From Verrucomicrobiota bacterium (GTDB lineage: Bacteria > Verrucomicrobiota > Verrucomicrobiia > Palsa-1439): a stretch of DNA of 40,037 nucleotides. Below are positions 3,619 through 33,673 of the stretch, piece by piece (position 1 is the stretch's first letter; each line of letters opens with the position of its first letter). A model generated the notes under the pieces. The model had not been told where the DNA came from and made no database searches. It saw only the letters and a list, made by a program, of their open reading frames with translations. Where the stretch lies: positions 1 to 40,037 of the forward strand of contig VHCW01000038.1 of assembly GCA_016871575.1 (NCBI GenBank), given 5' to 3'. The translations under genes and the position numbers were made by a program.

Positions 3619-4502
3619 ACGCGCTCCTCATCGGCACCCGCGGCAGTCCGCTCGCCCTCGCGCAGACGGAACTGGTCCGCACCCTTCTGCAACAGGCGCA
3701 TCCGGGCCTGGCCATCGAGATTCGCATCATCAAAACGAGCGGCGACATGTTCGGCGATGTTTCCCTCAGCAACGCCGGCGGCAAGGGGCTTTTCACAAAG
3801 GAAATCGAAGACCAACTTCTCGACGGCGCCATTCACCTTGCCGTCCACAGCCTCAAGGATTTGCCGACCACCTTGCCGGAGGGGCTGTGTATCGGGGCCA
3901 CGCCGTCGCGCGAAGATGCGCGCGACGTGTTCATTGCCAAGACCGCGCGGCGCGTGGCCGACCTGCCGATTGGCGCGCGCGTGGCCACCGGCAGCATTCG
4001 CCGGCGCGCCCAACTGATGGCGCGCCGCCCGGATTTGCAGGTCGAGGAAATGCGCGGCAACATCGGCACCCGGCTCCGCAAGTTTGCCGAGCGCGACGAA
4101 CTCGACGCGATGGTCCTGGCTGCCGCCGGTCTCAAACGCCTCGGCCTCCTCGACGCGCGCTGGCCGTTGCTCGACATCGCCGAGATGGTTCCCGCCGTGG
4201 GGCAGGGGATCATTGCCGTCGAAGCCCGCGCCGGCGACGAGACGGCGCTCAGCCTCCTCAACGCCATCAACGACGCCGACACGTTTGCCTGCGGCGAAGC
4301 CGAGCGCGCCTTCCTCCACGCGGCCGGCGGCGGTTGCCAGTTGCCCTACGCCGCGCACGCGACCGCGACCGGCGACCAACTCGATCTCATCGCCGCCAAG
4401 TTCACACACGACGGTTCCCGCGTCCGCCGCGCCAACGTCACCGGCCCAAAGACCGAAGCCCTTAAACTCGGCGAAGAAGCCGCCCGAAAGATCTCAGAAT
4501 GA
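3615..4502 (+). CDS. hemC: Porphobilinogen deaminase (hydroxymethylbilane synthase)
   Basis: Condenses four porphobilinogen molecules into hydroxymethylbilane. The 295-residue length is typical. Conserved features are IGTRGSPLALAQ at 6-17, KDLPT at 81-85 with the catalytic Asp82, the RRRAQL arginine cluster near 129-134, and GGGCQLP with C241, which carries the dipyrromethane cofactor. All key residues are present. ATG at 3615 overlaps the hemA stop as ATGA; an upstream in-frame ATG at 3594 would extend into hemA and is not needed. The stop overlaps the cobA-hemD start. Confidence 0.96.
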   Translation: MNALLIGTRGSPLALAQTELVRTLLQQAHPGLAIEIRIIKTSGDMFGDVSLSNAGGKGLFTKEIEDQLLDGAIHLAVHSLKDLPTTLPEGLCIGATPSREDARDVFIAKTARRVADLPIGARVATGSIRRRAQLMARRPDLQVEEMRGNIGTRLRKFAERDELDAMVLAAAGLKRLGLLDARWPLLDIAEMVPAVGQGIIAVEARAGDETALSLLNAINDADTFACGEAERAFLHAAGGGCQLPYAAHATATGDQLDLIAAKFTHDGSRVRRANVTGPKTEALKLGEEAARKISE

Positions 4503-17603: not shown

Positions 17604-19259
17604 CTACGGTTTTGTCGCGGCGGCGATGGTTTGGAGGAAACGCGCTGACCACTCGCCGCTGCGCAAGGCGCTTTGCTTGCGAACCTGCGTGATGACGAGT
17701 TGCTGGTCGAGATCCACCACGAACATGCAACCGGAAAAGGAACCGTGCCCGAGTGTGCGCGGACTGAACAACAGATCTTCGGGTCGCTTGGCGCCTCGTT
17801 TCGCGCCCGGCTTGAGGTGATGGACCCAATGGATGCCGATTCCTTCGTCCTCGGTGTACCCGCGGTCCGCGACGCGCACTGGTTCCGGCATCAGTTTCTC
17901 GAACGTCTCCGGCGCAATGAACTCCCACTCAGCATAACTGCCTCGATTGGCGACCCATTGCGCCAGGACGCCGAGTTCCATCGCGGTAAACTCGCCGTCG
18001 GAGCTGGCGTTGCCAATCGGCACGTCGCCGAAACCGAGCGGTTGAAAGAGATATTCATCGTAAAGCCGGACGGCGCTCTTGCCCGCAAGAATTTCCATGG
18101 CCTTGATGGCGAGTTCGAATCCCGCGCCGCTGTAGGCGTACTTGGCGCCCGGCTCGTTCACGTCAATCGCGTTGAGGATGACGTTCTCGAAGTGCGGATT
18201 GCGCATCCCGCCGAAATCGCCGTGACCGCCCAGGCCGCTGGTGTGGTTGAAACACTGGCGGAACGTGGGCACGCGCGGATTGTTCTTCGGATAATCGGGG
18301 AACACGACTGACAACGAATCGTCCAAGCCAACCAATCCTTGATCCAGAAACCGGCTGAACAGGATGCCGGTGATCGTCTTCGTAATGGAGGCGACCCAGC
18401 AACGATAATCGCGCGTGACGGGCTTGCCAGCCGCGTCCTCGCCGAACGCTTCGTGGGAAACGATGACGCCGTTCCGCGCAACCAATATCACGAACGGTTC
18501 ACCGGTGTCTTTCGCCCACTCACGGCAGACGCCGTCAATCTTCGCCTTGGCATCGTCGCTCATGCCCGCCTCGCGCAGCGAGCCGCTGCGGAGAGCCGCG
18601 GCCGGCGGATCGCGGCGGCGCGGCGGTTGCAGCGGACGAATCTGTTTCTCCAATCCCTGCATTTTGAGTTTCAACGCCAAGTGATAATCGTCGTTCATCA
18701 CCGCGCACGACTCGATAAACCGCGCTGGGCGTCCCAGCGGTTTGGCCTCCGTCAGCCCGGCGATCAGGATGGCGCCCTTCTCACTCTCCAAAACCGCGCG
18801 CTGCATGACATCTGTTGCCATTCGTATGAGTTCGGCTTGATGCTCTCGCACGACCGGTGGTGCGTTCGTGCCGGGAAAATGCGGCAAGGACGCCGTGAGG
18901 TCCGGAACATAGCCGCCCATGAAATTGTTCGGCAGTCCGTAGAAGGTCAACGCCCGGCGAAACGGCGTCCCGTTGGGCGCAGCCCCTTCGATCCACGCCA
19001 GCCAACGTCCGGGTTGATTGGGCGCAGCGTTTTCCTTCAAGTTGGCGTCAAACCAGCGGACACGGAGTTCGCCATTGAAGCCAAGCCTTCGGACTTCATC
19101 GGCGTCGCGCCAAATGATTCGCGGCGTCTCCCCCGGCTTGAAGATCCAACCACCCGGCTTGGCGGCGATCAATTCTTGCGCCTGGAATTGCTGCCGTTCG
19201 GACGCTTGCGCGACGAAGGAACAGACTGCCAAAAACACGATTGCGTATTGACGGAACAT
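17604..19259 (-). CDS. Exported beta-lactamase-family serine hydrolase with an extra N-terminal domain
   Basis: A 551-residue secreted protein. The signal peptide is about 1-19. Residues 20-230 form a beta-rich domain I do not recognise. Residues about 235-551 are a class C beta-lactamase/esterase fold: S291-I-T-K294 as nucleophile and base, YAYSGAG with Tyr376 where AmpC enzymes have YxN, and a late GHGSFSG (HxG) motif. Such proteins include esterases, D-amino-acid peptidases and transesterases, so the substrate is open. ATG at 19259 was chosen because GAGGTGA sits just before it; a GTG at 19268 overlaps that Shine-Dalgarno and is less likely. It is the last gene of operon A. Confidence 0.85.
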   Translation of the reverse strand: MFRQYAIVFLAVCSFVAQASERQQFQAQELIAAKPGGWIFKPGETPRIIWRDADEVRRLGFNGELRVRWFDANLKENAAPNQPGRWLAWIEGAAPNGTPFRRALTFYGLPNNFMGGYVPDLTASLPHFPGTNAPPVVREHQAELIRMATDVMQRAVLESEKGAILIAGLTEAKPLGRPARFIESCAVMNDDYHLALKLKMQGLEKQIRPLQPPRRRDPPAAALRSGSLREAGMSDDAKAKIDGVCREWAKDTGEPFVILVARNGVIVSHEAFGEDAAGKPVTRDYRCWVASITKTITGILFSRFLDQGLVGLDDSLSVVFPDYPKNNPRVPTFRQCFNHTSGLGGHGDFGGMRNPHFENVILNAIDVNEPGAKYAYSGAGFELAIKAMEILAGKSAVRLYDEYLFQPLGFGDVPIGNASSDGEFTAMELGVLAQWVANRGSYAEWEFIAPETFEKLMPEPVRVADRGYTEDEGIGIHWVHHLKPGAKRGAKRPEDLLFSPRTLGHGSFSGCMFVVDLDQQLVITQVRKQSALRSGEWSARFLQTIAAATKP

Positions 19260-19277
19260 TGAAATCACCTCGTTGTG

Positions 19278-21047
19278 TTAGAAACTGAATTCCACCGATT
19301 CGCCTTGCGGCAGGTCGCGCGTCACCCGCCGAATGGTGCCGTCCGGTTCGCGCACGATCAATGTGGCGTCCTTGACCGGTTGTCCGACCGACAGTTTCAG
19401 GCGAAGTCTGGCGCCGTCGGGCGTCGCGCCCGCAAGACGCACGTCACGACGTGCCATTTCCCAACGCCACACCTCGGCGTGTGTCCACCATTCCATGCCA
19501 CGGTTGCGGCCTTCCTTGATCAACGTCTGGAAAGCGTCGGCCATGCCGGGTTTTCCAATGTGCGCCGGGTGAAAGAGGAAATGCGCCACGCCGCCGTACG
19601 CAACGGCCTGATCCAGCAACGTGGGAGCGTGTTTCGCCGGCAAATGGATGTTGAGGTCTTGCGTGATCAGTGGGATTTCGTAAACGTCCAGAAAGCGCGG
19701 CGGCGTCACTTCATCGTCCAGCGGACGCCACGGCTGGCAGGTGCCACGCGGGAATCCGCAACCGCCGCGCTTGCTCGGCCCCATCGTGCCGTCGGCCTTC
19801 AACCCGGCCTTTTCGCACCAGCGGAAGAAATCCAGACGCCCTTCCCAACGCGTGTAATGGTTCTTGTTCGAGATAAGATCCTTGACTCCGCTATTTTCGG
19901 ATAAGCCGCGAAGTTGTTTAATGAATTGCTCGAATCCCCACTGATGATCCGCGCTGCTCTTCATCGCGTCGTAATGCAATGCGACCTCGCAGTCCGCAGC
20001 GCGCACCGCATCGTAGAGCGAACGCGGGTACGCGCACGGGAACATGATGCACCACGTTGTCCGGACACGGGCCTTTTTCACTTGTTCCAACAACGCCAAG
20101 CCTTGCTCCGGTTTGTTGCCGTCGCTGTCGTGACTGATGCATCCCACGGCGGGCAACGCGCGCGGCCACGGCGCAATCTGCGCGAGCGGTTGGTCCACGG
20201 CCTGTGCGGCGTGTTGGATCGCGCGCACGATGATCAACCGCAACTCATCCGCCACGGGGTACAGAAAGATCGGCGCCTCGCCCTTGCCCGGCGTTACGCG
20301 ATCAAAATCGCAGTCGAGCACCTGACCGTCATCGGTCTTCAACGCGCCGTCATTGATCGGCATCGTTCCGTCGAACGCCGGCGTGCCATCGCGCAGCACG
20401 GCGATCCCCTGCTGGATATGAACGATGCTGTTGAGCAGGTCGGGCGCAATCAACAGCGCCATCCCGCGGCCAACGCGTCGTTCCACCAACACCGGCAGTT
20501 TCCTGGATCGTTTGTGACGGTCTTGGACATTTCCGAAGGCCTGGCCATCTGTTGCGCGCACGGCAAGGCCGCCGAAGAAATGCAACGAGCTTTTCAGCCC
20601 GGCGAACACCGGGTGCCGCGCCTGCCGCACATCGAGATAACCTTCGCCGAGTTGCTGCACGCCGCTGGAACCGAATCCCCGTTCGATGCCGGTTGGCACT
20701 GATTCCACGCCGAACAACTCCGGCATTCCGTGCAACCCGCCCAGCGAAACCAGCGCGCCGCCGTTTTCCACGAAGGCAGCCAGTTTCTTGCGCTGGCCGC
20801 TGTTGAGTTTATGTTCGCCGGCGAGCACCAACACCCGCGAGCGGCCTGTTTCACCAGTCGGTTGTTGTTCGTAGAAGAAACCGGCGCGTTGGAGCACCTC
20901 GACCAAGTAGCCGTTGGATGGTGGCGACGGTGGAACTGAAATCTTCACCGCAGGAAAAAGCGACGAATCATGAAGATTGCCCGGTTCCGTCTGTGCAGCC
21001 GCAACGCAGATCCAGCACAACGTCAGGATGAGGGCACATCGTTTCAT
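19278..21047 (-). CDS. Exported polysaccharide-deacetylase-like protein with N-terminal GATase-like domain
   Basis: A protein of about 589 residues with a signal peptide. The N-terminal part (about 45-230) has VLVLAGEHKLNSGQRKKL and FVENGGALVSLGG, like the DUF4350/ThuA-type class I amidotransferase-like fold. The central part (about 290-510) has deacetylase-like motifs: SHDSDGN in place of TxDDG and ALHYDAM in place of HSxxH, then PHFLFHPAHIG-like sequence (AHFLFHPAHIG). A short beta domain ends it. It may act on an amidated or acetylated sugar, but this is inferred from fold only. ATG at 21047 is taken as start. A GTG at 21056 would form a GTGA overlap with the sulfatase stop and add three residues. 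It lies 18 bp before the serine hydrolase gene. Confidence 0.7.
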   Translation of the reverse strand: MKRCALILTLCWICVAAAQTEPGNLHDSSLFPAVKISVPPSPPSNGYLVEVLQRAGFFYEQQPTGETGRSRVLVLAGEHKLNSGQRKKLAAFVENGGALVSLGGLHGMPELFGVESVPTGIERGFGSSGVQQLGEGYLDVRQARHPVFAGLKSSLHFFGGLAVRATDGQAFGNVQDRHKRSRKLPVLVERRVGRGMALLIAPDLLNSIVHIQQGIAVLRDGTPAFDGTMPINDGALKTDDGQVLDCDFDRVTPGKGEAPIFLYPVADELRLIIVRAIQHAAQAVDQPLAQIAPWPRALPAVGCISHDSDGNKPEQGLALLEQVKKARVRTTWCIMFPCAYPRSLYDAVRAADCEVALHYDAMKSSADHQWGFEQFIKQLRGLSENSGVKDLISNKNHYTRWEGRLDFFRWCEKAGLKADGTMGPSKRGGCGFPRGTCQPWRPLDDEVTPPRFLDVYEIPLITQDLNIHLPAKHAPTLLDQAVAYGGVAHFLFHPAHIGKPGMADAFQTLIKEGRNRGMEWWTHAEVWRWEMARRDVRLAGATPDGARLRLKLSVGQPVKDATLIVREPDGTIRRVTRDLPQGESVEFSF

Positions 21048-21052
21048 GGCAA

Positions 21053-22813
21053 TCACCGTCTTTTCTTTTTCCCGGTCGGCTCAGGAGATGTCGCGGAAGG
21101 GCCGAGATACCGCACGTCCAGATCGCCTTCGAGATTCTTGTTGGCGGGCGTTGGCGGAAGATGTTCATCCGGGGCGAAGACAACATCGAGTGTGCCCTGC
21201 GCAGCGGCCAGCGTGAATACCGCCCGATTTTCCCCAGCGGCCACCGGCTGGCTGAGGGCGCGACCTTGCCAACTGACCACGATCCGGCCGGGGCCGGTCG
21301 CCTCCTTGCGCCGGAGCGCGATTTCATAGCGCCCGGAACGTTCGATGTTGACCACCCAACCATGCGGCTGGCTGAACTTCCACGTGGCATCCTGATAGCG
21401 GCACAACCGGACCGGATTTTCCGCGTCGTTGCCGGCGTGGATGATTCCCGGCGTGAACCGTCGCGAACGCCACACATCAGCAAACCACGCTTCGTATTCG
21501 CCGCGCAATTTCCTGACAATGTTCGGATGCTGCCCGGCCAGATCGCGTTGTTCGCCGGAATCGGTCTCCATATCGTACAGTTCCACCACGGGTTGCGACG
21601 GCGACGGCTCGAAATCCTCCCGGTTGAACGTGCCGGGAGACATGACCAGTTTGTATCGTTGCTGAATGGCGGCAGCATTTTGGAACAGCTTGGGAGTCAG
21701 TCCCCGGTGACATTGGATGAACAATGTCCGCTCAGGCCAAGCCGCAGGTTCAACATCCCCGCGCAGCAACGGCAGCAGACTCGTGCCGTCAATCGTGATG
21801 CCCGCCGGCAACCGCACGCCGGTGGCGTCGAGCAGCGTCGGCAACACGTCAATGTGCGCCGCGATCCGGTCAATCGAGCGGCCGCCCCGGAGTTGCGACG
21901 GCCATTGCGCGAAACACGGCACGCGGACGCCCCCTTCATAGACTGCCGCTTTGCGGTCGCGCAGACCGGCGTTGAACCGGTTCTGTTGCGCGCCGTTGTC
22001 GGTCAAAAACATAAACAGTGTGTTGTCGCGCAGTTTCAGTTCATCGAGGCGCTTCAACAACCGGGCGATGTTGTCGTCGAGATTTTTCAACATCGCGTAA
22101 ATCCGCGCCGTCGTGTCGTCGAGACCCAGCCGGCGGAAAGGCTCCACCCACGCATCGGGCACTTCCAACGGCGTATGCGGAACGTTGGTCGGCAGATAAA
22201 TGAAGAACGGGCGTTTGCGGTCAGCACCGGCAAACTCCAGCGCGGCATCGAAGAAAACGTCGGTGCAATAGCCGCGTGTCTGGACGTGCTTGCCGTTCTT
22301 CCACAGGCGCGGGTCGGAATAACTGTTGTCCTCATCGGGCGGCTGACCGATTCCGCCGGAGGTGTGAATGAGCGTTTCGTCGAACCCTTGGTCCTGTGGG
22401 CGCATGGGATAGTTTTCGCCCAGATGCCATTTGCCGAAGATGCCGGTGCGATACCCGCCCCCGCGAAGCAACTCGGCAACGGTTACTTCGTCACCGTGCA
22501 TTTTCGCGCCGCCGCGCGAGGTGTGGATGATGCCAGTGCGATACGGATAACGACCGGTCAACAACGCCGCGCGGGTGGGCGCGCAGACCGGGCTGACGTA
22601 GAACCGCGTCAGTTGAATGCCTTCGCGCGCGAACCGGTCGAGGACCGGCGTCTGGATTTTGTCATTCCCGTGAATCCCAACATCGCCGATCCCTTGGTCA
22701 TCAGTGAGAATCAGGACAATGTTCGGCTTGGATGATTTCGATGCCCCCATGAGACGCGGTGCGACGGCAAAGACCGTCAGTAGGCCGATGAAGATTGCGA
22801 TGATGCGATTCAT
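21053..22813 (-). CDS. Exported sulfatase (S1, formylglycine type) with C-terminal beta domain
   Basis: A 586-residue secreted arylsulfatase-family enzyme. The signal peptide is about 1-24. Metal-binding Asp residues are in ILTDDQG (35-41). The formylglycine site is C77 in CAPTRAALLTGR, with the CxPxR pattern that needs a maturing enzyme not seen in this window. GKWHLG and a later TDNGAQ are also typical. After about residue 440 a separate region (IHAGNDAENPVRLCR and beyond) looks like a beta-sandwich or carbohydrate-binding module. ATG at 22813 overlaps the PhoD stop as ATGA, so sulfatase translation is coupled to PhoD. The substrate is presumably a sulfated glycan. Confidence 0.92.
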   Translation of the reverse strand: MNRIIAIFIGLLTVFAVAPRLMGASKSSKPNIVLILTDDQGIGDVGIHGNDKIQTPVLDRFAREGIQLTRFYVSPVCAPTRAALLTGRYPYRTGIIHTSRGGAKMHGDEVTVAELLRGGGYRTGIFGKWHLGENYPMRPQDQGFDETLIHTSGGIGQPPDEDNSYSDPRLWKNGKHVQTRGYCTDVFFDAALEFAGADRKRPFFIYLPTNVPHTPLEVPDAWVEPFRRLGLDDTTARIYAMLKNLDDNIARLLKRLDELKLRDNTLFMFLTDNGAQQNRFNAGLRDRKAAVYEGGVRVPCFAQWPSQLRGGRSIDRIAAHIDVLPTLLDATGVRLPAGITIDGTSLLPLLRGDVEPAAWPERTLFIQCHRGLTPKLFQNAAAIQQRYKLVMSPGTFNREDFEPSPSQPVVELYDMETDSGEQRDLAGQHPNIVRKLRGEYEAWFADVWRSRRFTPGIIHAGNDAENPVRLCRYQDATWKFSQPHGWVVNIERSGRYEIALRRKEATGPGRIVVSWQGRALSQPVAAGENRAVFTLAAAQGTLDVVFAPDEHLPPTPANKNLEGDLDVRYLGPSATSPEPTGKKKRR

Positions 22814-24297
22814 TTTGCGGGGAAAACCTCATCATGCATCACGGTGCCGAAGACATCGTGATGACGAAAGCGAATGGACGGAGCACCGGCGCGACGACTC
22901 ACTTCGACGCTGAGAAATCCGCCTTTGACACGGAGAAACCGGTGTTCGGGGCGCTTGTCGTCCGGCGGCCAGCCGCCGGCGTGAACATCGGAACCGGGAC
23001 CGCACCCAAATTCCCAGAGATCAGTGCCCGGCCGGTGCGTCACGTATTGCCAGTGGCGGTCGCCATTGGTGATAAACATCTTGTGCCGATTGATGAACGC
23101 GCGCAGTTCATCACCCTCGAACCGGAAGTTGTCGTTGGCGTGGTTGTCGCGTTTATTCTTGCGGTCGGGACCCAGAAGCGGATTGGGGCTGATGAGCACC
23201 TTGAACGTCGCATCGGACCGAGCGACCGAGTCAAAGAACCACTGTTTTTGTTCCTTGCCCCAAATCGTTTTCTCCGGGCCATCGGGCATCGTGTTGGGGC
23301 TGCGATAGTTTCGCGTTTCGACGATCCAGATTTGCAGGTCTTTGCCCCAGCGGATGGTCTTGTACGGCTTGTCGTTGCTGGGGAATTGTTCCTTGTCGAA
23401 AATCTCCGCGCCACGCTCGAACGTCACGGCGCCGTAGGTCTGGCCCGGCCAACAGTCGTCCTTGAGCGTGTCGTGGTCGTCCTTCATGAAATAGGTCGTG
23501 ACGTTGGCGAGGAAACTGCGCTGGTACGGCAGCGCGAACAGCCGGTTCCACTTGAAACGCATCAGCTCTTCGGTCCAGGCGTACGGATGCGGTTTGTCGT
23601 AGTACTCCACGTCGCCGGTGTGAACGAAGAAATCCGGCTTCATCTTCAGCATGGTGTCGTAGATTTCGTGTCCGTTGGCCCCGGCATCGCGCAACGGATA
23701 CTCGTGGCAGGTGACAACCACGAATCGGATGTCACGCACGGCATCTGCGGCCGGCGCGGTATTGAAGCGCCCTTTGACACAGTCGCTGGGTTGCGCACCG
23801 GCGTTCGGGCGCGCTTCCACCACAGCCTCGTAGTCCGTGCCGGCGCGCAGGTTTTTCAGCTTCCATTGTGCGGTGAAGTCTTTCGACGCGCTGACTGGTG
23901 TCCAGCCGGTCTGGATTTTCTTTTTCTCCTCTCCCTTGGGGTAATATGTCAGGCGCGCTTCGCCCTCCATGCCCGGACAAGCGCCTTCCATGTCTTCCAG
24001 CCTGAACCCCGCGGGAATCTGGTCAGGGATCAGTTGCGTTGTTGTTTTTCCCTGCATGAACTGTTTGTTCACTTTTTCGCCGGGATCAACGAACTGTTTC
24101 CCGTTCCGGTTCATCTCCATCGTCTTCGTCAACCGTGTCCAGAGCACGACGCTGTGTTGGTCAACCCATCCGTTGTGAAAACCGTTTCCCAAAAACGGTC
24201 CGCGCCGGGCATCACCGGCGTCGGCGGCAGTTAAACAGAAAACTGCTGACAGGACAAACCACGCAAGCGCTGATTTCAAGGTGATCATGCTTTTCAT
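22810..24297 (-). CDS. Exported PhoD-like phosphatase/phosphodiesterase
   Basis: A 495-residue secreted metallophosphoesterase. The signal peptide spans about 1-26. An Fn3-like N-terminal domain (WVDQHSVVLWTRLT, with the LKNLRAGTDYEAVVEA strand region) precedes the PhoD catalytic domain. Metal-site motifs are VVTCHEYP, HTGDVEYYD with the D-x-x-Tyr pair of iron-binding PhoD enzymes, MKDDHDTLKDD, and NGDRHWQYV. Known PhoD enzymes cleave phosphomono- and diesters, including teichoic acids. The start was set at ATG 24297; ATG at 24288 and a longer frame to 24339 are alternatives, but 24297 best precedes the signal peptide. It is the first gene of operon A, and its stop overlaps the sulfatase start. 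Confidence 0.9.
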   Translation of the reverse strand: MKSMITLKSALAWFVLSAVFCLTAADAGDARRGPFLGNGFHNGWVDQHSVVLWTRLTKTMEMNRNGKQFVDPGEKVNKQFMQGKTTTQLIPDQIPAGFRLEDMEGACPGMEGEARLTYYPKGEEKKKIQTGWTPVSASKDFTAQWKLKNLRAGTDYEAVVEARPNAGAQPSDCVKGRFNTAPAADAVRDIRFVVVTCHEYPLRDAGANGHEIYDTMLKMKPDFFVHTGDVEYYDKPHPYAWTEELMRFKWNRLFALPYQRSFLANVTTYFMKDDHDTLKDDCWPGQTYGAVTFERGAEIFDKEQFPSNDKPYKTIRWGKDLQIWIVETRNYRSPNTMPDGPEKTIWGKEQKQWFFDSVARSDATFKVLISPNPLLGPDRKNKRDNHANDNFRFEGDELRAFINRHKMFITNGDRHWQYVTHRPGTDLWEFGCGPGSDVHAGGWPPDDKRPEHRFLRVKGGFLSVEVSRRAGAPSIRFRHHDVFGTVMHDEVFPAK

Positions 24298-24388
24298 TGT
24301 AAACTGACACAGCCGGCGAACAAGGGCGAAGTTACTCATGCTTGCTTTTCGCGGCGCGCAGCGTACAAAGCCTCAAGGAACCCTTATC

Positions 24389-26563
24389 GTGAAGTTGCAT
24401 CCGCTTATCATTCTCGCCGTGGCGACGTTTTCCACGGTCGTCGTTTCCGTCGAGCAGCGCACACCTGCAGAACCGCGCCGCATCCAGTCCATCGGTCCCA
24501 GCGTGACGGCGTTATCGTGGCAGGGAACAGGCGAACGGATGCGGGCAATGGGATTCGATGCCTCCGCCTATCAGGATGGCAACGAAGCGGAGCGCGATGC
24601 CCTCGACGCCATTGCGCGCGCGTCGCCGGCTTCCTCGTTGGGAAAACGTTTTCCCGAAATGAACCGCGACGGCACGCCGCGACGGGGAAAGGGCAAGTCA
24701 CGCTTCGTGGCTCTTGCCCCGGAAGCGCAGGAGAGTTTTGCGGCACGGGTGGCCGAAACGGTCGGGCGATTGGCTCCGTTCCGTGTCTGGAAATATCTGA
24801 ATATCGCTCCGGAAAAACGCCCGCATGGCGAAGTCAGTTTCGATCCAGTGACCCGTCAGGCGTGGCGCAAGGCGTCCGGCCTGGACATCCCGGAAGCGAT
24901 TCTGCAAAAAACCGGCGTTGATTATCGCGCGCTGGCCGGTTTTCCAGAAACTCGCATCGTCGTCGACCAACATCCGATTCTCGCTTTCTATCGCTGGCTC
25001 TGGCGTGAAGGCGACGGTTGGCCGTGCATTTACAATGCGGCGCATCGCGCGGTCAGAACTTCGGGCCGGGAGGACGTGACCAGCTACGTCGCGCCGGCGC
25101 TGCGCGTGCCGTCGCTGCCCGGAGCCAACGGCGACGTGGATGCGCTCTTTCACTGGGGTTACATCCATCCTGACCCGACACGCATCGGGAAATGCGCCGA
25201 TGAATTGCTGGCCATGGCTCACGATGGCAACCGGAAACAGCGGACCATCATGATGACGCAGCTTTTCACCAAACGATCCTACGTCACGCCAAAGGGGATG
25301 GCCGCCGAAGCAGCCGACGCATCCCTCGACTTGTCGGACAGTTATTTTACGATCACGCCAGAGCAATTGGAGATCGCATTCTGGAGCAAGGTGAGCCGCC
25401 CTCTCGATCACATCGCCTACAACGGCCTGCGCAACATCATGCCGGAGGACTGTACAGTTCCCGCTGCCGGAGACAAATCCACACCGGGACGGCTTCGTGA
25501 TTTGTTGACCACAATTCTGAAACCGCTCGGCTCAACCTTCGCCGTTCTTGAAGACCCGCCGCCTCGCGTCGGTTTCCTGCAAAGTTTTACCGCCGAGATG
25601 TTTGCCGGTCGCGGCTCGTATGGCTGGCCGTTCCGAAACTGGCAGGACGACGCTTACATGGCGCTTCTGTACAATAGCATCCAGCCGCGCATCCTCTACG
25701 ACGACATCGTGCTCGCCGGCGGCTTGGTGGAACTCGATGCCATTGTGCTCGTTCATTGCGATGTCCTTTCAGCGGGCGTGGCGGAAAAGATTCTCGCCTT
25801 CCAGAAACGCGGAGGCATCGTTGTCGCGGACGAACATCTCGCACCCGGCATCCAGCCCAACATCCTCTGGAAGACCGAGCCAATCAGCGAAAAAGCCGCA
25901 AAGCGGAAAGAGACCGTGATTCGCAAGGGAAAAGAACTCCGGGAGCAACTCGAACCGCGCGTCCGTTTTCCGATTGCCGTTTCCAATCCCGACTTGGTCG
26001 CTCGGCTGCGCCTCTCCGGCGCAGGTCGTTACCTGTTTCTCGTCAACGACGCCCGGCGCAGCGGCAACACACAAGGACGATACGGTCTGGTCCTGGAAGA
26101 CGGCCTTCCCCTGCAAGCTACCGTTCACATTCAAGGAAACACCGGCGCGGTTTACGACTTGCGCAGGGGCAAAGCAATCCCGTTCCGCAACGAACAGAAC
26201 TGCGCCGTAATTGATCTCGACTTTGCTCCCGGCGAAGGCACTGTCCTGCTCTTGCTGGATCAGCCGGTCGGACCTCTGAAGCTCCACGCCGAACCGACAA
26301 CGACGTCAGGCTCTTTGCCGATTCGGGTCAGTGTGCATGATGAACAAGGGAACATTCTGCCCGCTGCGTTCCCCGTGTTTGTGGAAGTCAGTACTCCATC
26401 CGGGCACGTTGGCGAGTTCACCGGCTGGCATACGACGCGTGATGGCACCCTCACTTTGCCCATCGCACCGGTTCATGGAGGACAGCGCGTCAAGGTTCGT
26501 GAAGGAGTTTCAGGGAAGAGTGTGTCGTTGTCGGTCAATTCCCGAACGAAGACGAAACGCTGA
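24389..26563 (+). CDS. Large exported protein, glycoside-hydrolase-like, function unknown
   Basis: A 724-residue protein with a signal peptide (about 1-22). I do not recognise a named family with certainty. The central part has barrel-like blocks, for example FRVWKYLNIAPEKRP, VSFDPVTRQAWRK, FYRWLWREGDGWP and FHWGYIHPDPTRIG. A following region (about 430-490, LELDAIVLVHCDVLSAG-like with GGIVVADEHLAP) resembles the beta-galactosidase trimerisation fold found in GH42-like enzymes. The C-terminal 150 residues are beta-rich. GTG at 24389 is taken as start because AAGGA lies about 10 nt upstream and the signal peptide begins there; ATG at 24338 would add 17 residues. It diverges from the PhoD gene of operon A. 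Confidence 0.72.
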   Translation: MKLHPLIILAVATFSTVVVSVEQRTPAEPRRIQSIGPSVTALSWQGTGERMRAMGFDASAYQDGNEAERDALDAIARASPASSLGKRFPEMNRDGTPRRGKGKSRFVALAPEAQESFAARVAETVGRLAPFRVWKYLNIAPEKRPHGEVSFDPVTRQAWRKASGLDIPEAILQKTGVDYRALAGFPETRIVVDQHPILAFYRWLWREGDGWPCIYNAAHRAVRTSGREDVTSYVAPALRVPSLPGANGDVDALFHWGYIHPDPTRIGKCADELLAMAHDGNRKQRTIMMTQLFTKRSYVTPKGMAAEAADASLDLSDSYFTITPEQLEIAFWSKVSRPLDHIAYNGLRNIMPEDCTVPAAGDKSTPGRLRDLLTTILKPLGSTFAVLEDPPPRVGFLQSFTAEMFAGRGSYGWPFRNWQDDAYMALLYNSIQPRILYDDIVLAGGLVELDAIVLVHCDVLSAGVAEKILAFQKRGGIVVADEHLAPGIQPNILWKTEPISEKAAKRKETVIRKGKELREQLEPRVRFPIAVSNPDLVARLRLSGAGRYLFLVNDARRSGNTQGRYGLVLEDGLPLQATVHIQGNTGAVYDLRRGKAIPFRNEQNCAVIDLDFAPGEGTVLLLLDQPVGPLKLHAEPTTTSGSLPIRVSVHDEQGNILPAAFPVFVEVSTPSGHVGEFTGWHTTRDGTLTLPIAPVHGGQRVKVREGVSGKSVSLSVNSRTKTKR

Positions 26564-26592
26564 GATCACCTGATACGCGCGGTCAAACAGCA

Positions 26593-27678
26593 TCAAGGTT
26601 TTCCCCGTAGATGTTTTGCCAGAAATTCCGCAAGATCGTCGGGCAACGGGCGCGCGCCTTCGTGATGGAACCGGCTCTCGACGCGGACGGCATCCAGCTT
26701 GTCCTTCAGCACCTTGCCAAAGTGCGGATGATGAATGAGAAGCCCTTGCGAGGCATCGCGCGGCAACGGCAGGTTGTCCAGTGTCCCCGAATAGATCAGC
26801 AACGTCGGCGGATCATCAGCGGTGACATGGTTAATGACCGAGGACTCCGCAATCAGTTTCTTCACTTCCGGCTTGTTATAGTCGCCATCATGGACGCCGT
26901 AGAACAAGCTCAAGCTGGAATGGATCTCCGGCGGCCCGCCGAGGTTTTTCCGGATCCAGTCCGGATCCAGGTTCGTGGGGCCGGCTGTCGGGACGATGCA
27001 CGTGACGCGCGTTGATTGTCGGCGCACCGGGTCATCGCTCCGGGGATCCGCCATGTCGTCCTTGTACGCAATCCACATCGTAATGACCGCCCCCGCCGAG
27101 CCGCCCCCAACCGCGATCTTGTTGGGATTGATTCCAAACTCTCTCGCGCGGTAACGAAGGAACTGAATCGCACGCGCGCAGTCCTGCATCGGCACCGGCG
27201 TCAGCACATCCTTGCCATTCACGAAACGGTAATTCGCGGCGACAACGGCGTACCCTAATTTCAAGTAGCCCGTCGGATCAAAAAGGTTCTTGTCGCCCCC
27301 GACAAATCCTCCTCCGTGAAAGTAAACGAAGACGGGAAGCGGCGTTTTCGAGGAGGCCCCGTCAGGCAACCAGAGATCCAACAAATTCCGCTCGTGCAGC
27401 CCGTACTTGACATCGGCGCGCGTGGGTTTAGGACGGTTCTGTTCAGCGCGCCGCTGCTGTTGCTGCTTCTGTCTTCGTGATTCCTCGAACTTGGAACGAA
27501 ATGCCTGCTCCTCTTCCGTCGTGAGGACGCCGTCCTTGTTCGTGTCAGCCTGCGGAAACCTCTGAAGAAACATCTTCATACGGTCGTCCTTCACAGATGA
27601 CCGAGGCGGCTCAGCCGCTGTTCCGATTGCGATGGCGGCCAGGCACCCTGCGATCAAGATGATGCGATGTTGTTTCAT
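26593..27678 (-). CDS. Exported EF-hand-containing alpha/beta hydrolase (HSL/BD-FAE-like esterase)
   Basis: A 361-residue secreted esterase. The signal peptide is about 1-21. An EF-hand calcium loop is visible at D45-E56 (DTNKDGVLTTEE), followed by a Gln/Arg-rich coiled linker (about 64-86). The hydrolase domain has the oxyanion HGGG at 121-124, the nucleophile S194 in GGGSAGA, and a C-terminal acid/base region near LIYSGTLDN and FHHEGARP. The family removes acyl groups from carbohydrates or small esters. ATG at 27678 has the strong Shine-Dalgarno GAAGGAGA upstream, deciding against the longer frame to 27735. It is the last gene of run B, 35 bp after the sulfatase. Confidence 0.88.
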   Translation of the reverse strand: MKQHRIILIAGCLAAIAIGTAAEPPRSSVKDDRMKMFLQRFPQADTNKDGVLTTEEEQAFRSKFEESRRQKQQQQRRAEQNRPKPTRADVKYGLHERNLLDLWLPDGASSKTPLPVFVYFHGGGFVGGDKNLFDPTGYLKLGYAVVAANYRFVNGKDVLTPVPMQDCARAIQFLRYRAREFGINPNKIAVGGGSAGAVITMWIAYKDDMADPRSDDPVRRQSTRVTCIVPTAGPTNLDPDWIRKNLGGPPEIHSSLSLFYGVHDGDYNKPEVKKLIAESSVINHVTADDPPTLLIYSGTLDNLPLPRDASQGLLIHHPHFGKVLKDKLDAVRVESRFHHEGARPLPDDLAEFLAKHLRGKP

Positions 27679-27713
27679 GTTGCAGGTCTCCTTCTCTATT
27701 GCGATGCGTGTTG

Positions 27714-29171
27714 CTACTTGCCTTCCTTCGCCCATTGTTTCATCTGGCGGATGTTTTCCTCGATGATTCGGTGGCGTTCAGGACGCTTCCGCATGGCCTG
27801 CAAATAAACGGCCATGTCGCTGTCGTACATCCGTTCCGATTCGGGACCGTGGTCGCCGGTCTCGCGCATCCAGCGATCCATCCGCGCGCGGAGCATTTCG
27901 AGGGTGCGCCGGTGTTTCGAGTCGGCGGCGAGGTTCTTTGTTTCAAACGGGTCGGCCTGCAAATCGTAAAGCTCCTCAACAGGACGAGTCGGGGAAAATA
28001 AAACCTGTTCCTGCATCGGGCTGAGCTTGCCTTGCGCGTGCAGTTCGCGAAGGCGTTGGATGATCGGCTTGCCGTCCTTGTAGGCGTTGGGCTGGAGCAG
28101 GGGACGTTGCGGATGGAAGTTGCGGATGTACTTGAACCGGTCGGTGCGGACGCAACGGATACGTTCCACCGTTTCATCACAACGGTCGCGCGCCGCGAAC
28201 GCCGCATCGCGTTTCCGGTAATTCTTCCCAAAGATGTCGCGCGCCTGCATCCGGTCAGGTATCGCAATGCCGGCCCATGCGAGCGAGGTGGCGGCCATGT
28301 CAATGTGCTCGATCAAATCGTTCCGCACCGCGCCGCGCGCGATGCCGGGACCGCGCACGATGAACGGGATGCGGATGCCGCCATCGTACAGAAATTGTTT
28401 TTCGCGGGCATGACTGATGCCGTGGTCGCCCATGAAGATGATGAGCGTCTGTTCCAAAACGCCTTCGTCCTCCAGCCGCTTGAGAATGTCTCCCACTTGC
28501 AGGTCGCAATACCGGAGGCAGTCGAGATAGTGCGCCCAATCCTCCAGTAACACCGGGTCGCGCGGATAATACGGCGGCAGCGTGACCCGCTCCGGCGGCG
28601 TCAGCGCGCCGAGCGCCTTCGGCGCGATGTCCGTCAGCCAGTTGCTCTCACGCAGTTTGCCGCCGAGCAGTTGTATCTGCGCGAAAAACGGCTGACCGGG
28701 CTTGCGTCCCGCCCAATCGTTGCCGTCGTAGATGTTTTCGTCCCACTCGAAGTTGTAGTCCGTCTTGCCGATGCCTTTGCCTTTCCTGTCGTAGGGCACA
28801 TTACAAGTGTAATACCCGGCCCGTTGAAACAGCGCCGGCGCCGGCTCGATGCCGGGCGGCAGATGAATCTTCTCCGTGCCGCGCCCGCTGCGATGCTGGT
28901 GGGCGCCGATGCTTGTCTGGTACATGCCGGTGATCATGGCCGACCGGGACGGCGAACAGACCGGCGCGGTGATGATGGCGCGCGTGAACAGCGTTCCTTC
29001 CCGCGCCAGCCGGTCCACGTTCGGCGTCTGGATCGCCTTTTCGCCGTAACAAGGGAACTCGACACCCACATCGTCCATGATGATCCAGAGGATGTTTGGC
29101 TTGGGCGATGCGGCCCATGCGAGATTGGCCAGTGCAACGGCAACGAATAGGATGATGATTTTGTTTTTCAT
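27714..29171 (-). CDS. Exported sulfatase (S1, formylglycine type)
   Basis: A 485-residue secreted sulfatase. The signal peptide is about 1-21. ILWIIMDDVG carries the metal-binding Asp pair, and C72 in CSPSRSAMITG is the CxPxR site converted to formylglycine. IIFMGDHGISHAREKQ (about 280-295) gives the second metal and sulfate-contact region. It is shorter than the sulfatase at 21053 and lacks its C-terminal beta domain. The two are clearly different branches of the family. ATG at 29171 forms ATGA with the PhoD stop, and the preceding open frame is not used. No Shine-Dalgarno is seen, which fits coupled translation. Confidence 0.92.
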   Translation of the reverse strand: MKNKIIILFVAVALANLAWAASPKPNILWIIMDDVGVEFPCYGEKAIQTPNVDRLAREGTLFTRAIITAPVCSPSRSAMITGMYQTSIGAHQHRSGRGTEKIHLPPGIEPAPALFQRAGYYTCNVPYDRKGKGIGKTDYNFEWDENIYDGNDWAGRKPGQPFFAQIQLLGGKLRESNWLTDIAPKALGALTPPERVTLPPYYPRDPVLLEDWAHYLDCLRYCDLQVGDILKRLEDEGVLEQTLIIFMGDHGISHAREKQFLYDGGIRIPFIVRGPGIARGAVRNDLIEHIDMAATSLAWAGIAIPDRMQARDIFGKNYRKRDAAFAARDRCDETVERIRCVRTDRFKYIRNFHPQRPLLQPNAYKDGKPIIQRLRELHAQGKLSPMQEQVLFSPTRPVEELYDLQADPFETKNLAADSKHRRTLEMLRARMDRWMRETGDHGPESERMYDSDMAVYLQAMRKRPERHRIIEENIRQMKQWAKEGK

Positions 29172-30625
29172 TGGGGTGTCAATTGACTGCGGGTCAGCGT
29201 TTTCTCGTGGATGATTGTGCCAGTTTCGCTGATGAGGCGGAACGTCACGGTCGGGTCGGCGACGGCGGCGTTGATGGTGAACTCGCCGAAGGCGTAGCCG
29301 AGATGGCCGAACAGTTGGTGTTCGCTGTTTGGCGCCATCGCCGGCGGACCCCACGTGATGCCGCCGAGACTGGCCGGCTCGAACTCGTAGAAGTTGAATC
29401 CCGACGGCCGCGGTATCCGGAACCCGCGTGCGCCGTGCCGGTCGCCGGAGATCAGCAGGACGCCGCCGATGCGGTTCTTCTCGATCAGATTGAAGATGCG
29501 CTCGCGTCCCTCCCGGTCATACACTCCCCACGAGTCTTTGCCGTTGGACACATAATCGCTCCACATCGTGCTGGACGCGAGAATGATGAACGGCCCCTGG
29601 CAGTCGAGCAGTTGGGTTTCGAGCCATTTCATCTGCTCGGTGCCGAGGAAGTTGCCTTTCTCCCGGAAATACCGGCCATCGGTCATGATGACATCGCACG
29701 GCCCGATCCGCGTCCGAAAGAAGACGCCTCCTCCTTTCTCGCCGAAACCGTACGAAGGATTGCACCAAGCGCTGCGGAAAACGCTCCACACACCAGCGCG
29801 ATCTTCCGCCGTGTAGCCCGGAGGAATCCCCCATTTGTCGTTGTCGAAGTAATCGTGGTCATCCCAGATCGCATAGACGGGAACCGCCGCCACCAGCCCC
29901 TGCCACGCCGGATAAAAATCGCGCAACACAAAGTCCGCGCGGTGCATTCCCAGGTGATTGTTCCGGTCTTGCACGGCGGCGTCGCCGCCCAGGAGCAACG
30001 CCGCCGGGTTCCGGCGGCGAATCGTCTCGGCCTGTTTCTTGTTGCCCAGCCCGAACCGATGCGAACACGTTCCGAACGCGATGCGAACCGTGTCCGCCGC
30101 CGGTGTCGTCATCGCCGCATGAGCGGGAATCGGAATTTCCGCGCCGTCAACGAGCACGCGGTACGGATGGCGCGTGGCCGGTTTCAGGCCGGTGACGGGC
30201 ACGATGGCGCTGAGGTCGGTTCCCGTGGCGCTTTTCACCGGGCCGAACTTCTTTTCGCGCCCGTCCACCGTGACGCGCACCTCGACGCTCGACGGACGGC
30301 ACGTGCGCAGCCAGACTTTGGCGCTCGTGGCAGTGATGTCGCCGAGCATCGGGCCGCCGAGATGTTTGATCTGTTTCTCGGCGCAGAGACGCTGGACGGC
30401 AGCATCGCCAGCCACATCGGCGAACGTGGCCGTGCGATTGGCCTTCAACGCATTCTGGCAGGCCTCGAACAACTGCATCACGTCATCCGGTTGTTTGTCC
30501 CAGAGGTTGAACAACTGCAAGTTATCCAGGCGCGGAAGCTTTTGTTCCGCCGGTCGTTTCGCCGCCGCAACGGCGACGGTGGCAGTCGCCAGCAAGATGA
30601 ACGCGGTTTTACGGAAGAGATTCAT
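29168..30625 (-). CDS. Exported PhoD-like phosphatase, divergent metal site
   Basis: A 485-residue secreted metallophosphoesterase. The signal peptide is about 1-20. A helical N-terminal region (about 25-85, LQLFNLWDKQPDDVMQLFEA) precedes the Fn3-like strand block (GDITATSAKVWLRT). The catalytic domain has FGTCSHRF, LGGDAAVQD, IWDDHDYFDNDKWG, DGRYF and ISGDRHGARGF. At the D-x-x-Tyr position of iron-binding PhoD enzymes it reads Asp-Ala-Ala-Val, unlike the first PhoD here, so the metal site may differ. ATG at 30625 has AAAGGAT upstream. Its stop overlaps the sulfatase start. It lies 59 bp after the carboxypeptidase gene. Confidence 0.87.
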   Translation of the reverse strand: MNLFRKTAFILLATATVAVAAAKRPAEQKLPRLDNLQLFNLWDKQPDDVMQLFEACQNALKANRTATFADVAGDAAVQRLCAEKQIKHLGGPMLGDITATSAKVWLRTCRPSSVEVRVTVDGREKKFGPVKSATGTDLSAIVPVTGLKPATRHPYRVLVDGAEIPIPAHAAMTTPAADTVRIAFGTCSHRFGLGNKKQAETIRRRNPAALLLGGDAAVQDRNNHLGMHRADFVLRDFYPAWQGLVAAVPVYAIWDDHDYFDNDKWGIPPGYTAEDRAGVWSVFRSAWCNPSYGFGEKGGGVFFRTRIGPCDVIMTDGRYFREKGNFLGTEQMKWLETQLLDCQGPFIILASSTMWSDYVSNGKDSWGVYDREGRERIFNLIEKNRIGGVLLISGDRHGARGFRIPRPSGFNFYEFEPASLGGITWGPPAMAPNSEHQLFGHLGYAFGEFTINAAVADPTVTFRLISETGTIIHEKTLTRSQLTPQ

Positions 30626-30684: not shown

Positions 30685-31602
30685 CTACGGACGGGGAATC
30701 ATTTGCGGCCACGCCCACTCGAACAACGCCCGCGTATCCGCATCGCGGTCGTCCTTGGTTTTGCATCCGAGCACCACGGAAATCAGGTGGCTTTTTTCGC
30801 GACGCTTGCTTGCGACAAGACAACAACCGGCGGAAGGAGTGAACCCGGTTTTGATGCCGTCGCAGCCGTCCACGCCGAGCAGACGGCAGGTGTTGTCCCA
30901 CGTTACTGTGCGGAATGTTCCCTCCGTCTGACGGACACGGCACTCGTGTTGTTTCGTGCTGACATACGAGCGGAAAGACGGCAACCGCATCGCATGCCAT
31001 GCCAGCCGCGCGAGGTCGTGCGCTGTCGTTGTGCGGTCGGCGCTGGTGCCGCCGTCGCCGTAGGGCGATCGGTACACGGTCCGCGTGAGACCGAACCGGC
31101 GCGCGGTGCGATTCATCTCCGCAACGAAGTTGGCCCGTGTGGCCAGGTTCTTCGTGGCCAGGCCGGCGGCACGCATGGCGTTGTCGGGCGGCGCACAACG
31201 AGAGTTGAAATGCTCCGCCAACGCCGTGCCGGCGTCGTTGCCCGACGGCAGCAGCAACCCATAGAGGCAATCACGCACGGACACGCTTTCGCCCGCCGTG
31301 ATGCCGGTGGTCGAACCGGGCGCCGAATCAGCCAGCTTGGAAAACGTCACGGTTTCATCCAGCACGGTCGGATTCTTTTCGGCAAGCTGCAAGACAACGT
31401 AGGCGCACATCATTTTCGTCGTGCTGGCCGACTTGCGCGGCTCGTCAGCATTGAACCCGCCGAGCAAGCGCCCTGTTCGTCCGTCAGCAACTGCCCATGC
31501 CTTCGCGGTGACGGTGGGCGGCGGAGAACTCACGCGCACGCCGGCGCAACCAGTGGCTACAAAGGTCGCGGCCAACAGAACATGGAACCGGTTGGGTTTC
31601 AT
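30685..31602 (-). CDS. D-alanyl-D-alanine carboxypeptidase (peptidase S11), probable lipoprotein
   Basis: Trims the terminal D-Ala from peptidoglycan stem peptides. The 305-residue protein has the three penicillin-binding motifs: S60-T-T-K63, S120-G-N122 and KTG in GIKTGFT (about 251). A hydrophobic N-terminus ends in FVATGC with C19 as a likely lipidated cysteine. The C-terminal domain and amphipathic anchor of E. coli PBP5 are absent, so lipid anchoring would replace it. ATG at 31602 overlaps the transporter stop as ATGA. Its presence in run B is the main argument that the run touches cell-wall metabolism. Confidence 0.92.
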   Translation of the reverse strand: MKPNRFHVLLAATFVATGCAGVRVSSPPPTVTAKAWAVADGRTGRLLGGFNADEPRKSASTTKMMCAYVVLQLAEKNPTVLDETVTFSKLADSAPGSTTGITAGESVSVRDCLYGLLLPSGNDAGTALAEHFNSRCAPPDNAMRAAGLATKNLATRANFVAEMNRTARRFGLTRTVYRSPYGDGGTSADRTTTAHDLARLAWHAMRLPSFRSYVSTKQHECRVRQTEGTFRTVTWDNTCRLLGVDGCDGIKTGFTPSAGCCLVASKRREKSHLISVVLGCKTKDDRDADTRALFEWAWPQMIPRP

Positions 31603-32834
31603 TTGGAGAATATGTTGACGAGTTCCGTGATGGCGATCCAGCCGAACAGCGCCAGCGCGACCACGAGCGCGAGGTTGCGGATGATATTGTTGCGCAACGA
31701 ACCGATCCAGTCCCGGCGATTGTTCAGGTACAACAGCACCGCCGCCAGGAACGGCATGAAGAACGCGCCGATGACCGTAAAGAGCACCACCATCGCCACC
31801 GGCCTGCCCGTAAACAACAACACCAGCGGCGGCCCGGCGAGAAACAACAGGTAGCCGCGATAGGCGCGGGTGGTTTTCAGGTCCGCTTTGACGGCATCCG
31901 CAAGACGGGCGCGTTGCGCCACGAAGTCGGCGAACAGATACGGCACGCCCTGCCAGATCGCGAGCATCGCGCTGAACACCGCGCACCAAAAGCCAATGAG
32001 AAACGCCCATCGTCCGACCGGCCCCAAGAGCGCGTTCAACCGCGCCGCCACCTCCAGCGCCATGCCGGTGCCTTGTATGATTTGGGCGTTGCACCCTGAC
32101 GCAACCACGGTGAGCGCCAGCCCGAACAAGAGCGTCACCGCATAGGCCAGCAACAAGTCTGCACGCACCGCGCGCTGAAATCCCGCGCCACTCCACGAAT
32201 TCTCGCGGATCCAGTACCCATAACAGAGCATCGTCATGCTGCCGCCAATCCCGCCGAGGATGCCGAGCACCGATTTGCCGGAACCCGGCGGCAATTCGGG
32301 CCAGACGAAATGACGCAGTATCTCCGTGACGTGAGGCTTTACCAGCACTGCGCAAATCACAACCGCCAGCACCATCACGCCCACGAGCATTTTCATCAAC
32401 CGCTCAAAGAATGTGAATCGCCCCACGAGCACCAGCGCCGCCGCCGCCACGGAATGCACAATGCCCCACGCCCAGACCGGCCACTGTGGAAACAGGCTGT
32501 GCCCCGCCAAGCCGCAGGCATTCGACAGCGAGCCGCCGACGAAGAACGTCCAGAGCAACAGATAGAGGAAAAAGTAAACGGTCACCCATTTGGGGAGCCG
32601 TTGCGCGCACGCTTCGATGATCGTGCTGCCGGTGGCGAGTTGCCACCGGGCCAATCCTTCGTTGAGCGCAAACTTCAGCGCCACGCACGCCAACAACGCC
32701 CATGCCAATTGCGTGCCGAATTGCGCGCCCGTGACCGTCGCGGTGATCACATCGCCGGCGCCGATGCCCGCCGCCGCGACGATCAAGCCCGGCCCCAAGA
32801 CCTTGAGCGGCGCGAGAATGGATGGGCGTGACAT
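31599..32834 (-). CDS. Nramp-related membrane transporter lacking the canonical DPGN motif
   Basis: A 411-residue protein with about 11 transmembrane segments in the Nramp pattern. It begins with GPGLIVAAAGIGAGDVITAT in TM1, where metal-transporting Nramps have DPGN; here the four positions read GAGD. In TM6 the canonical MPH region reads MLC (GGSMTMLCYGYW). The usual metal ligands are therefore missing. Related proteins without these ligands are annotated as Nramp-family transporters in PVC bacteria, but their substrate is not established to my knowledge. ATG at 32834 is the start, 8 bp after the amidotransferase stop. Its stop overlaps the carboxypeptidase start. Confidence 0.82.
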   Translation of the reverse strand: MSRPSILAPLKVLGPGLIVAAAGIGAGDVITATVTGAQFGTQLAWALLACVALKFALNEGLARWQLATGSTIIEACAQRLPKWVTVYFFLYLLLWTFFVGGSLSNACGLAGHSLFPQWPVWAWGIVHSVAAAALVLVGRFTFFERLMKMLVGVMVLAVVICAVLVKPHVTEILRHFVWPELPPGSGKSVLGILGGIGGSMTMLCYGYWIRENSWSGAGFQRAVRADLLLAYAVTLLFGLALTVVASGCNAQIIQGTGMALEVAARLNALLGPVGRWAFLIGFWCAVFSAMLAIWQGVPYLFADFVAQRARLADAVKADLKTTRAYRGYLLFLAGPPLVLLFTGRPVAMVVLFTVIGAFFMPFLAAVLLYLNNRRDWIGSLRNNIIRNLALVVALALFGWIAITELVNIFSK

Positions 32835-32842
32835 GGGAGTTG

Positions 32843-33670
32843 TTACTCTTTCAATGCAAGACGGAAAAAGTTTTCCAGCACCTTTCGCCCGTCGGTGTGG
32901 GTCTCGTCGTATTGTTCGGGATGGAACTGGACGCCATAGACCAGGCGTTTCCGGTCTTTCATCGCCTGGACGCGGCACTCGGCAGTCGAGGCGAGCAGGT
33001 CGTATCCCCCCGGCACATCGGGCAACTGGAATGCATGGGATTGTTTCACCGCAATCTCCTGTCCCAACCCGGCGAATAACGGATCCGGTTTGACGATTTG
33101 CACCTTCAGGAATCCGCGCTCCTTGAAAAATCCCGGATGATATGTCGGCATCAGGTCTTTTTCGCCTTCCTTGAGCTTTCGCATCCGGACAATGTCCAAT
33201 CCGTACGCTTTCCCAATCAACTGGCCGCCACCGCAGAAACCGATCATCGGGATTGTCGTGTTGCGAATCAGATCGAAGAACGGACGGTCGTCGGGCGGCA
33301 CATCGGTCGTGTTGCGTCCGCTGATCAGAATGGCCTTGACGTTGGGCCGATCCAAATCGGCACCGGTGACCTCGCTGCGATGGAACACCAGGCAATCGAG
33401 TCCGGACAGTTCCTTGAATCGCTCCCGCATCCGGCTCGGAGTGGCCTGTTTCAGCGGATCGGTGAGTTTCTTCAATCCTCCGCGCACGATATCCTCAAGC
33501 TGGATGTCGAGATACACGATGACCGGATGCTCCCGCGCGGCCAAACGCTCCGGCCGGTCGTAGATTTGTTTCCAGAGTTGGTCTTGCGAAAGGGTTGCCT
33601 GGTTGAATCCCACCATCAACGCCAGAATTGCAAGGCCACTGCGAATGAAAGATCGGCGCGTTGTATTCAT
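32843..33670 (-). CDS. Tat-exported class I glutamine amidotransferase-like protein
   Basis: A 275-residue protein with a twin-arginine signal (TTRRSFIRSGLAILALMVG, 3-21). The class I amidotransferase fold has the nucleophile elbow IGFCGGGQLIG with C146 and the H250-P-E252 pair in GVQFHPEQYDE, a complete Cys-His-Glu triad. Cytoplasmic relatives release ammonia from glutamine or cleave gamma-glutamyl bonds. An exported member is more likely a hydrolase of gamma-glutamyl compounds or of peptide amides, which is inference. ATG at 33670 is 3 bp beyond the upstream stop. It sits second in run B. Confidence 0.83.
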   Translation of the reverse strand: MNTTRRSFIRSGLAILALMVGFNQATLSQDQLWKQIYDRPERLAAREHPVIVYLDIQLEDIVRGGLKKLTDPLKQATPSRMRERFKELSGLDCLVFHRSEVTGADLDRPNVKAILISGRNTTDVPPDDRPFFDLIRNTTIPMIGFCGGGQLIGKAYGLDIVRMRKLKEGEKDLMPTYHPGFFKERGFLKVQIVKPDPLFAGLGQEIAVKQSHAFQLPDVPGGYDLLASTAECRVQAMKDRKRLVYGVQFHPEQYDETHTDGRKVLENFFRLALKE

Positions 33671-33673
33671 AAT

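Follow-up and report, generated by a model that had tools for sequence, protein, structure and literature searches.

We analysed a 40,037-nucleotide stretch (hereafter the window; positions 1 to 40,037 of contig VHCW01000038.1, Verrucomicrobiota bacterium assembly GCA_016871575.1) that carries two minus-strand operons of secreted hydrolases. In each, the stop codon of a gene for a secreted PhoD-family metallophosphoesterase overlaps the start codon of a gene for a secreted S1-type sulfatase in the four bases ATGA. PhoD1 (P0004; 22810..24339, minus strand; PF09423, E=3.8e-20), the first gene of operon 1, meets sulfatase 1 (P0003; 21053..22813, minus strand; PF00884, E=2.1e-57) at 22810..22813 (minus strand). 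PhoD2 (P0008; 29168..30631, minus strand; PF25077, E=1.4e-13; PF09423, E=1.2e-12) meets sulfatase 2 (P0007; 27714..29171, minus strand; PF00884, E=2.5e-39) at 29168..29171 (minus strand). Both overlaps had been reported in a sequence-only reading of the window; the open reading frames, strands and positions proved exact, and Pfam confirmed the PhoD and sulfatase domains. Against PF09423, PhoD1 and PhoD2 scored 72.7 and 48.1 bits, respectively (curated cut-off 27), placing both in the PhoD family, and both sulfatases carry the S1 signature C/S-x-P/A-S/T-R, as CAPTR in sulfatase 1 and CSPSR in sulfatase 2. PhoD1 may start at the ATG at 24297; the sulfatase 2 gene starts at 29171, though its open reading frame extends further upstream.

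The two pairs are clearly divergent, as the sequence-only reading had also held. PhoD2 has an N-terminal DUF7800 domain that PhoD1 lacks (for PhoD1, Pfam gave only weak PhoD_N/fn3 signals), and residues ~450-586 of sulfatase 1 form a C-terminal extension that is absent from sulfatase 2. The closest solved structures of sulfatase 1 were S1_16 and kappa-carrageenan S1 sulfatases (PDB 9fo1, E=8.5e-59), and sulfatase 2 matched PDB 9bbd, an "S1_8B sulfatase", with E=1.3e-95; these subfamily names are those of the PDB entries rather than SulfAtlas assignments. Bacillus subtilis PhoD (2YEQ) was the best Foldseek match for both the PhoD1 AlphaFold model (pLDDT 83.5; E=2e-23, TM 0.63) and the low-confidence PhoD2 prediction (pLDDT 64, 3 sequences; E=5e-17). 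Because the PhoDs are only 23% identical (333 columns, E=4e-5) and the sulfatases 27%, the pairs did not arise by recent duplication of one of them, in agreement with the earlier reading.

We then compared the frequency of PhoD-sulfatase adjacency with chance. Adjacency was defined as a direct-neighbour sulfatase on the same strand within 600 bases, and the expectation came from draws among the remaining genes of each locus. Genes in the loci were called by homology, and sulfatases were labelled by phmmer with about 20 seeds. A sulfatase lay beside 23 of 80 PhoD1 relatives found by sequence search (9.9 expected, P<5e-5), beside 8 of 25 further PhoD1 genes from Verrucomicrobiota (3.6 expected, P=0.006) and beside 10 of 23 close PhoD2 relatives (≥39% identity; 4.0 expected, P=0.0009). 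Among 20 distant PhoD2 relatives, we observed only 2 (0.95 expected, P=0.23). The excess over within-locus draws, 2.2-2.5-fold for PhoD1 and close PhoD2 loci, therefore shows that the association is real in these two subfamilies, unlike in the distant PhoD2 relatives.

The source genome (5.19 Mb, 257 contigs) gave 148 sulfatase matches (about 140 genes, ~3% of its genes), 30 PF03781 (FGE-family) matches, candidates for sulfatase maturation in a family that also includes non-FGE proteins, 14 GH29 matches and 3 PhoD matches. Two of the three PhoD genes overlap a sulfatase gene. The chance that at least two of three adjoin a sulfatase is P ≤ ~0.012, an upper bound calculated from match counts on the assumption of ~4,300 non-sulfatase genes, no more than ~280 of which would lie beside a sulfatase. 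The third PhoD gene (L001:4909-6750) is separated from a sulfatase by one same-strand gene; near this sulfatase, it is also flanked by two genes that look uroporphyrinogen-decarboxylase-like by eye (L001:6747-8453 and 3777-5114). PhoD2 had no match in ten other genomes of the host's order, and the PhoD1 matches of a phylum-wide search included no relative from that order; therefore, both are accessory genes. PhoD1 and close PhoD2 genes were co-present in 2 of 388 genomes of the phylum (13 and 21 carriers would give ~0.7 by chance), although these numbers are small.

Next, we examined how regular the pair is. The sequence-only reading had taken the order PhoD then sulfatase to be maintained, but outside the window we counted 28 sulfatase-first and 18 PhoD-first pairs (P=0.18 against equal use), which rules out a conserved PhoD-first order. 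The PhoD-first four-base overlap recurs only in three loci (L029, L115 and L190), and a sulfatase-first one is found in three others (L010, L032 and L121). Grouped at a loose similarity threshold, the partner sulfatases formed 21 clusters, four of which (0, 1, 5 and 6) have PhoD1 as partner in certain genomes and PhoD2 in others. None of 20 sulfatase 2 relatives lies beside a PhoD, ruling out PhoD2-sulfatase 2 as a conserved pair, and the nearest relative of PhoD2 (L112, 70% identity) has no sulfatase neighbour. Two Bacteroidota loci (L018 and L020) do have a sulfatase of the sulfatase 1 type close to PhoD1, in reversed order. Adjacency changed at least 9 times on the tree of 43 PhoD2-type proteins and at least 24 times on that of 106 PhoD1-type proteins. 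Distances between partner sulfatases followed those between PhoD1 proteins weakly to moderately (Mantel r=0.41 with P=0.0004 among sulfatase-first pairs, and 0.26), in part a species effect. Members are swapped and reordered, and there is therefore no dedicated two-gene system. The proposed PhoD-sulfatase module thus stood in so far as adjacency exceeds expectation, and fell as a fixed pair: the earlier reading saw a real, non-random association and overstated its regularity.

A single dedicated sulfatase partner was also considered. The S1 cluster resembling a Pseudomonas arylsulfatase (4CXK) supplied partners more often than the others did (15/25 members versus 35/110; Fisher P=0.012, uncorrected); this is suggestive only, since the commonest partner cluster is also the largest. 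In Maribellus maritimus (L010), a PhoD2-type gene, a sulfatase gene and a PhoD1-type gene follow one another, the last two joined by ATGA; here, both PhoD types have independently come to lie beside a sulfatase. Two further arrangements were noticed. In marine Flavobacteriaceae (L026, L027, L028, L035, L036, L039, L042, L044 and L045), PhoD1 was called convergent with its neighbour, with a four-base end overlap and in a conserved order, and L124 (G170:C118) and L125 (G258:C233) carry two or three PhoD2-type genes in tandem.

To compare the metal sites, we took the known enzyme as a reference: in B. subtilis PhoD, a tyrosine and a cysteine are ligands of Fe(III), and iron ligated by tyrosinate has been described as a feature that PhoD shares with purple acid phosphatases (PMC4223295). 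In PhoD1 and its relatives, Tyr246 is present in 81 of 81 sequences and Cys211 in 71 of 81 (glycine in the other 10), and the DDHD and GDRH motifs are conserved, so that, judged from the alignment, PhoD1 keeps the canonical PhoD metal ligands. The relatives with glycine at residue 211 retain the tyrosine and come mostly from Verrucomicrobiota and Planctomycetota (L057, L066, L067, L069, L071, L072, L075, L076, L078 and L081).

PhoD2 differs. It belongs to a clade of 26 sequences from Verrucomicrobiota and Bacteroidota (with relatives in L010, L038 and L112-L131) that forms one branch (SH-aLRT 100). The Fe(III) tyrosine normally stands three residues past the aspartate of GD; in this clade, 26 of 26 members have Val, Leu or Ala there, and PhoD2 itself reads GDAAV instead of GDxxY. 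The DDHD motif (with one H to W exception), GDRH and Asp430 are retained, and 14 positions are invariant and specific to the clade, including His404, two residues past the Cys/Asp ligand, Arg436, and Tyr474, immediately past DDHD (P0008 open reading frame numbering). By contrast, 17 of 20 distant PhoD2 relatives keep the tyrosine. The remaining three (L141, L143 and L144) look degenerate: they have no GD and no DDHD, have lost GDRH, and their frames are open, so they look like inactive PhoD-fold proteins. With the window omitted, sulfatase adjacency was seen in 11 of 25 clade members versus 2 of 17 tyrosine-bearing relatives (Fisher P=0.04). This clade without the iron tyrosine is a new point, absent from the earlier reading. 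We infer that its metal site has been rebuilt, and Tyr474 or His404 could replace the lost tyrosine. Our tentative proposal, which we hold to be possible rather than likely, is that the clade is a PhoD-fold type specialised for sulfated, fucose-rich glycans beside sulfatases, with a chemistry or substrate undescribed for PhoD.

Both operons contain further hydrolases. In operon 1, sulfatase 1 overlaps through GTGA with P0002 (19278..21056, minus strand), a secreted protein that looks ThuA-like and polysaccharide-deacetylase-like by eye, a label that no database confirmed, as Pfam, NCBIfam and PDB searches gave no meaningful match. The last gene, P0001 (17604..19268, minus strand; PF00144, E=3.8e-26), encodes a secreted beta-lactamase-fold serine hydrolase. 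In operon 2, P0006 (26593..27735, minus strand; PF20434, E=3.9e-28), which overlaps sulfatase 2 by 22 bases, encodes an esterase-like alpha/beta-hydrolase of the BD-FAE family with an EF-hand loop recognised by eye. The suggestion that each pair is followed by an acyl-removing enzyme did not extend to the relatives: P0002 relatives were labelled in none of the displayed loci, and those of the EF-hand esterase in few. Serine hydrolases had also been placed in both operons; beta-lactamase-fold hydrolases do lie in or beside both, P0001 being recognised by Pfam and P0012 by eye. Between the two operons lies a divergent gene, P0005 (24338..26563, plus strand; 741 residues), with no recognised domain and no match in Pfam, NCBIfam or PDB.

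The loci of relatives place PhoD among glycan-degrading enzymes. Same-strand neighbours of PhoD1 genes (83 scanned) included the glycoside hydrolase (GH) family GH88 (6) and the fucosidase families GH29 (5) and GH95 (3), as well as SusD (2) and Exo_endo_phos phosphatases (3). Those of PhoD2 genes (57 scanned) included GH29 (4), GH95 (2) and several carbohydrate-esterase families; esterases near the PhoDs belonged to GDSL, AXE1, SASA and BD-FAE. GH29, GH95, GH88 and esterases are the enzymes one would expect for polysaccharides that are sulfated and contain fucose or uronate, and the neighbour families point to sulfated glycans rich in fucose or uronate as the material degraded. A GH or lyase alongside, as in a polysaccharide utilization locus (PUL), was found in many of the relatives' loci.

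We reasoned that the two operons are separately assembled, PUL-like catabolic operons, and put the probability of this reading at about 60%. They would have been assembled independently in a sulfatase-rich Verrucomicrobiota genome, each with a PhoD-fold metallophosphoesterase and a formylglycine-type S1 sulfatase, both secreted and presumably co-translated, next to esterase-like hydrolases. Such a set would remove sulfate, phosphodiester or phosphomonoester, and probably acyl groups from a glycan or glycan conjugate, and this stripping of charged groups would let glycosidases act on it. PhoD would be a recurrent, interchangeable operon member, in an association that is functional but labile. 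We infer that the PhoD and the sulfatase of one pair share a polymer as their substrate, with PhoD attacking its phosphate esters; one glycan that is both sulfated and phosphorylated is a plausible candidate for the two enzymes.

Several observations weigh against PUL-like operons. Pfam recognised no glycoside hydrolase in either window operon, so the same-operon GH or lyase of a PUL is missing there, and most sulfatase-rich loci have no PhoD. The permutation gives PhoD a slight advantage, since each locus has a PhoD gene at its centre, and loci that are related lack independence (L152 duplicates L080). Upstream of operon 2, a D-Ala-D-Ala carboxypeptidase of family S11 (30685..31605, minus strand, start approximate; PF00768, E=2.5e-43), 53 bases from PhoD2, and an Nramp transporter fit cell-wall or metal roles equally well. 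These genes belong to a same-strand series directly upstream of PhoD2 (30685-35731, minus strand) that continues with class-I amidotransferase-like and double beta-lactamase-fold genes. Because the operons lack a GH and because S11, Nramp and glutamine-amidotransferase-like genes lie upstream, the substrate of operon 2 is less certain.

An alternative that we regard as unlikely, though it deserves weight, is that there is no functional pairing: phosphate-scavenging PhoD genes would simply fall beside abundant, clustered sulfatases, with ATGA as the usual spacing of dense operons. The 148 sulfatase matches in 5.2 Mb are consistent with this explanation, as is the lack of a conserved pair, order or partner, and four-base overlaps join 25 of 445 other neighbour pairs as well as 7 of 55 PhoD-sulfatase pairs. 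However, the enrichment persists against genes of the same loci and is absent in distant PhoD2 relatives. Pho-box-like sites in the window showed no excess either (6 matches, 11.4 expected), a weak point because the consensus may not be that of this phylum.

A further alternative, which we consider improbable, is that PhoD-fold members, chiefly PhoD2, no longer hydrolyse phosphate esters but another ester of sulfated glycans, for instance sulfate, without formylglycine, or acyl. The missing tyrosine and the clade-specific invariant residues would fit, as would the fucosidase, esterase and sulfatase loci in which the PhoD2 clade sits, and sulfatase activity, although not reported for PhoD, has been deemed worth testing (PMC8528806). 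Against it, the remaining metal-site motifs DDHD, GDRH and Asp430 are kept and the nearest fold is PhoD. Duplication of one ancestral pair followed by divergence would account for the identical order and overlap in both operons, but is very improbable given the low identity between the pairs, the far closer relatives elsewhere (61% in Bacteroidota for PhoD1, 70% for PhoD2 and 66% for sulfatase 2), mostly without the other partner type alongside, and nearest relatives that are unpaired or reverse-ordered.

Accounts of sulfated glycan breakdown have so far centred on sulfatases, glycosidases and esterases. If PhoD does belong to such PUL-like operons, a recurrent partner drawn from two unrelated subfamilies would bring in a step that releases phosphorus or is new in some other way, and the many PhoD genes tallied in ecology as markers of phosphate scavenging would include members devoted to glycan catabolism. 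A glycan role of PhoD is directly testable, because the tyrosine-less clade should yield a PhoD-fold enzyme that lacks the tyrosinate charge-transfer band.

The earlier statement that no such system had been described agrees with our literature searches, which covered few subscription papers and found no PhoD-sulfatase module. Compared with B. subtilis PhoD (2YEQ; PMC4223295), PhoD1 has the same fold, with the Fe(III)-site Cys and Tyr in place and the Asp/His motifs retained, but shares only 17% identity in the Foldseek alignment; PhoD1 and PhoD2 genes also differ in sitting in sulfatase/fucosidase loci, and PhoD2 in lacking the iron tyrosine. Sulfatase 2 matches S1_8 structures, and sulfatase 1 kappa-carrageenan S1_16 and S1_19 entries (E down to 8.5e-59). 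Also among the closest known systems are PULs and the sulfatase clusters of Planctomycetes-Verrucomicrobia-Chlamydiae (PVC) bacteria, reported for Kiritimatiellales (PMC6388578) and for Verrucomicrobiota on sulfated methyl pentoses (PMC8857213). PhoD is not mentioned in the search-result text of these two papers, and, unlike such clusters, the window operons have no recognised glycoside hydrolase. These systems share with our genome or with the relatives' loci many S1 sulfatases, GH29 and GH95 fucosidases and esterases.

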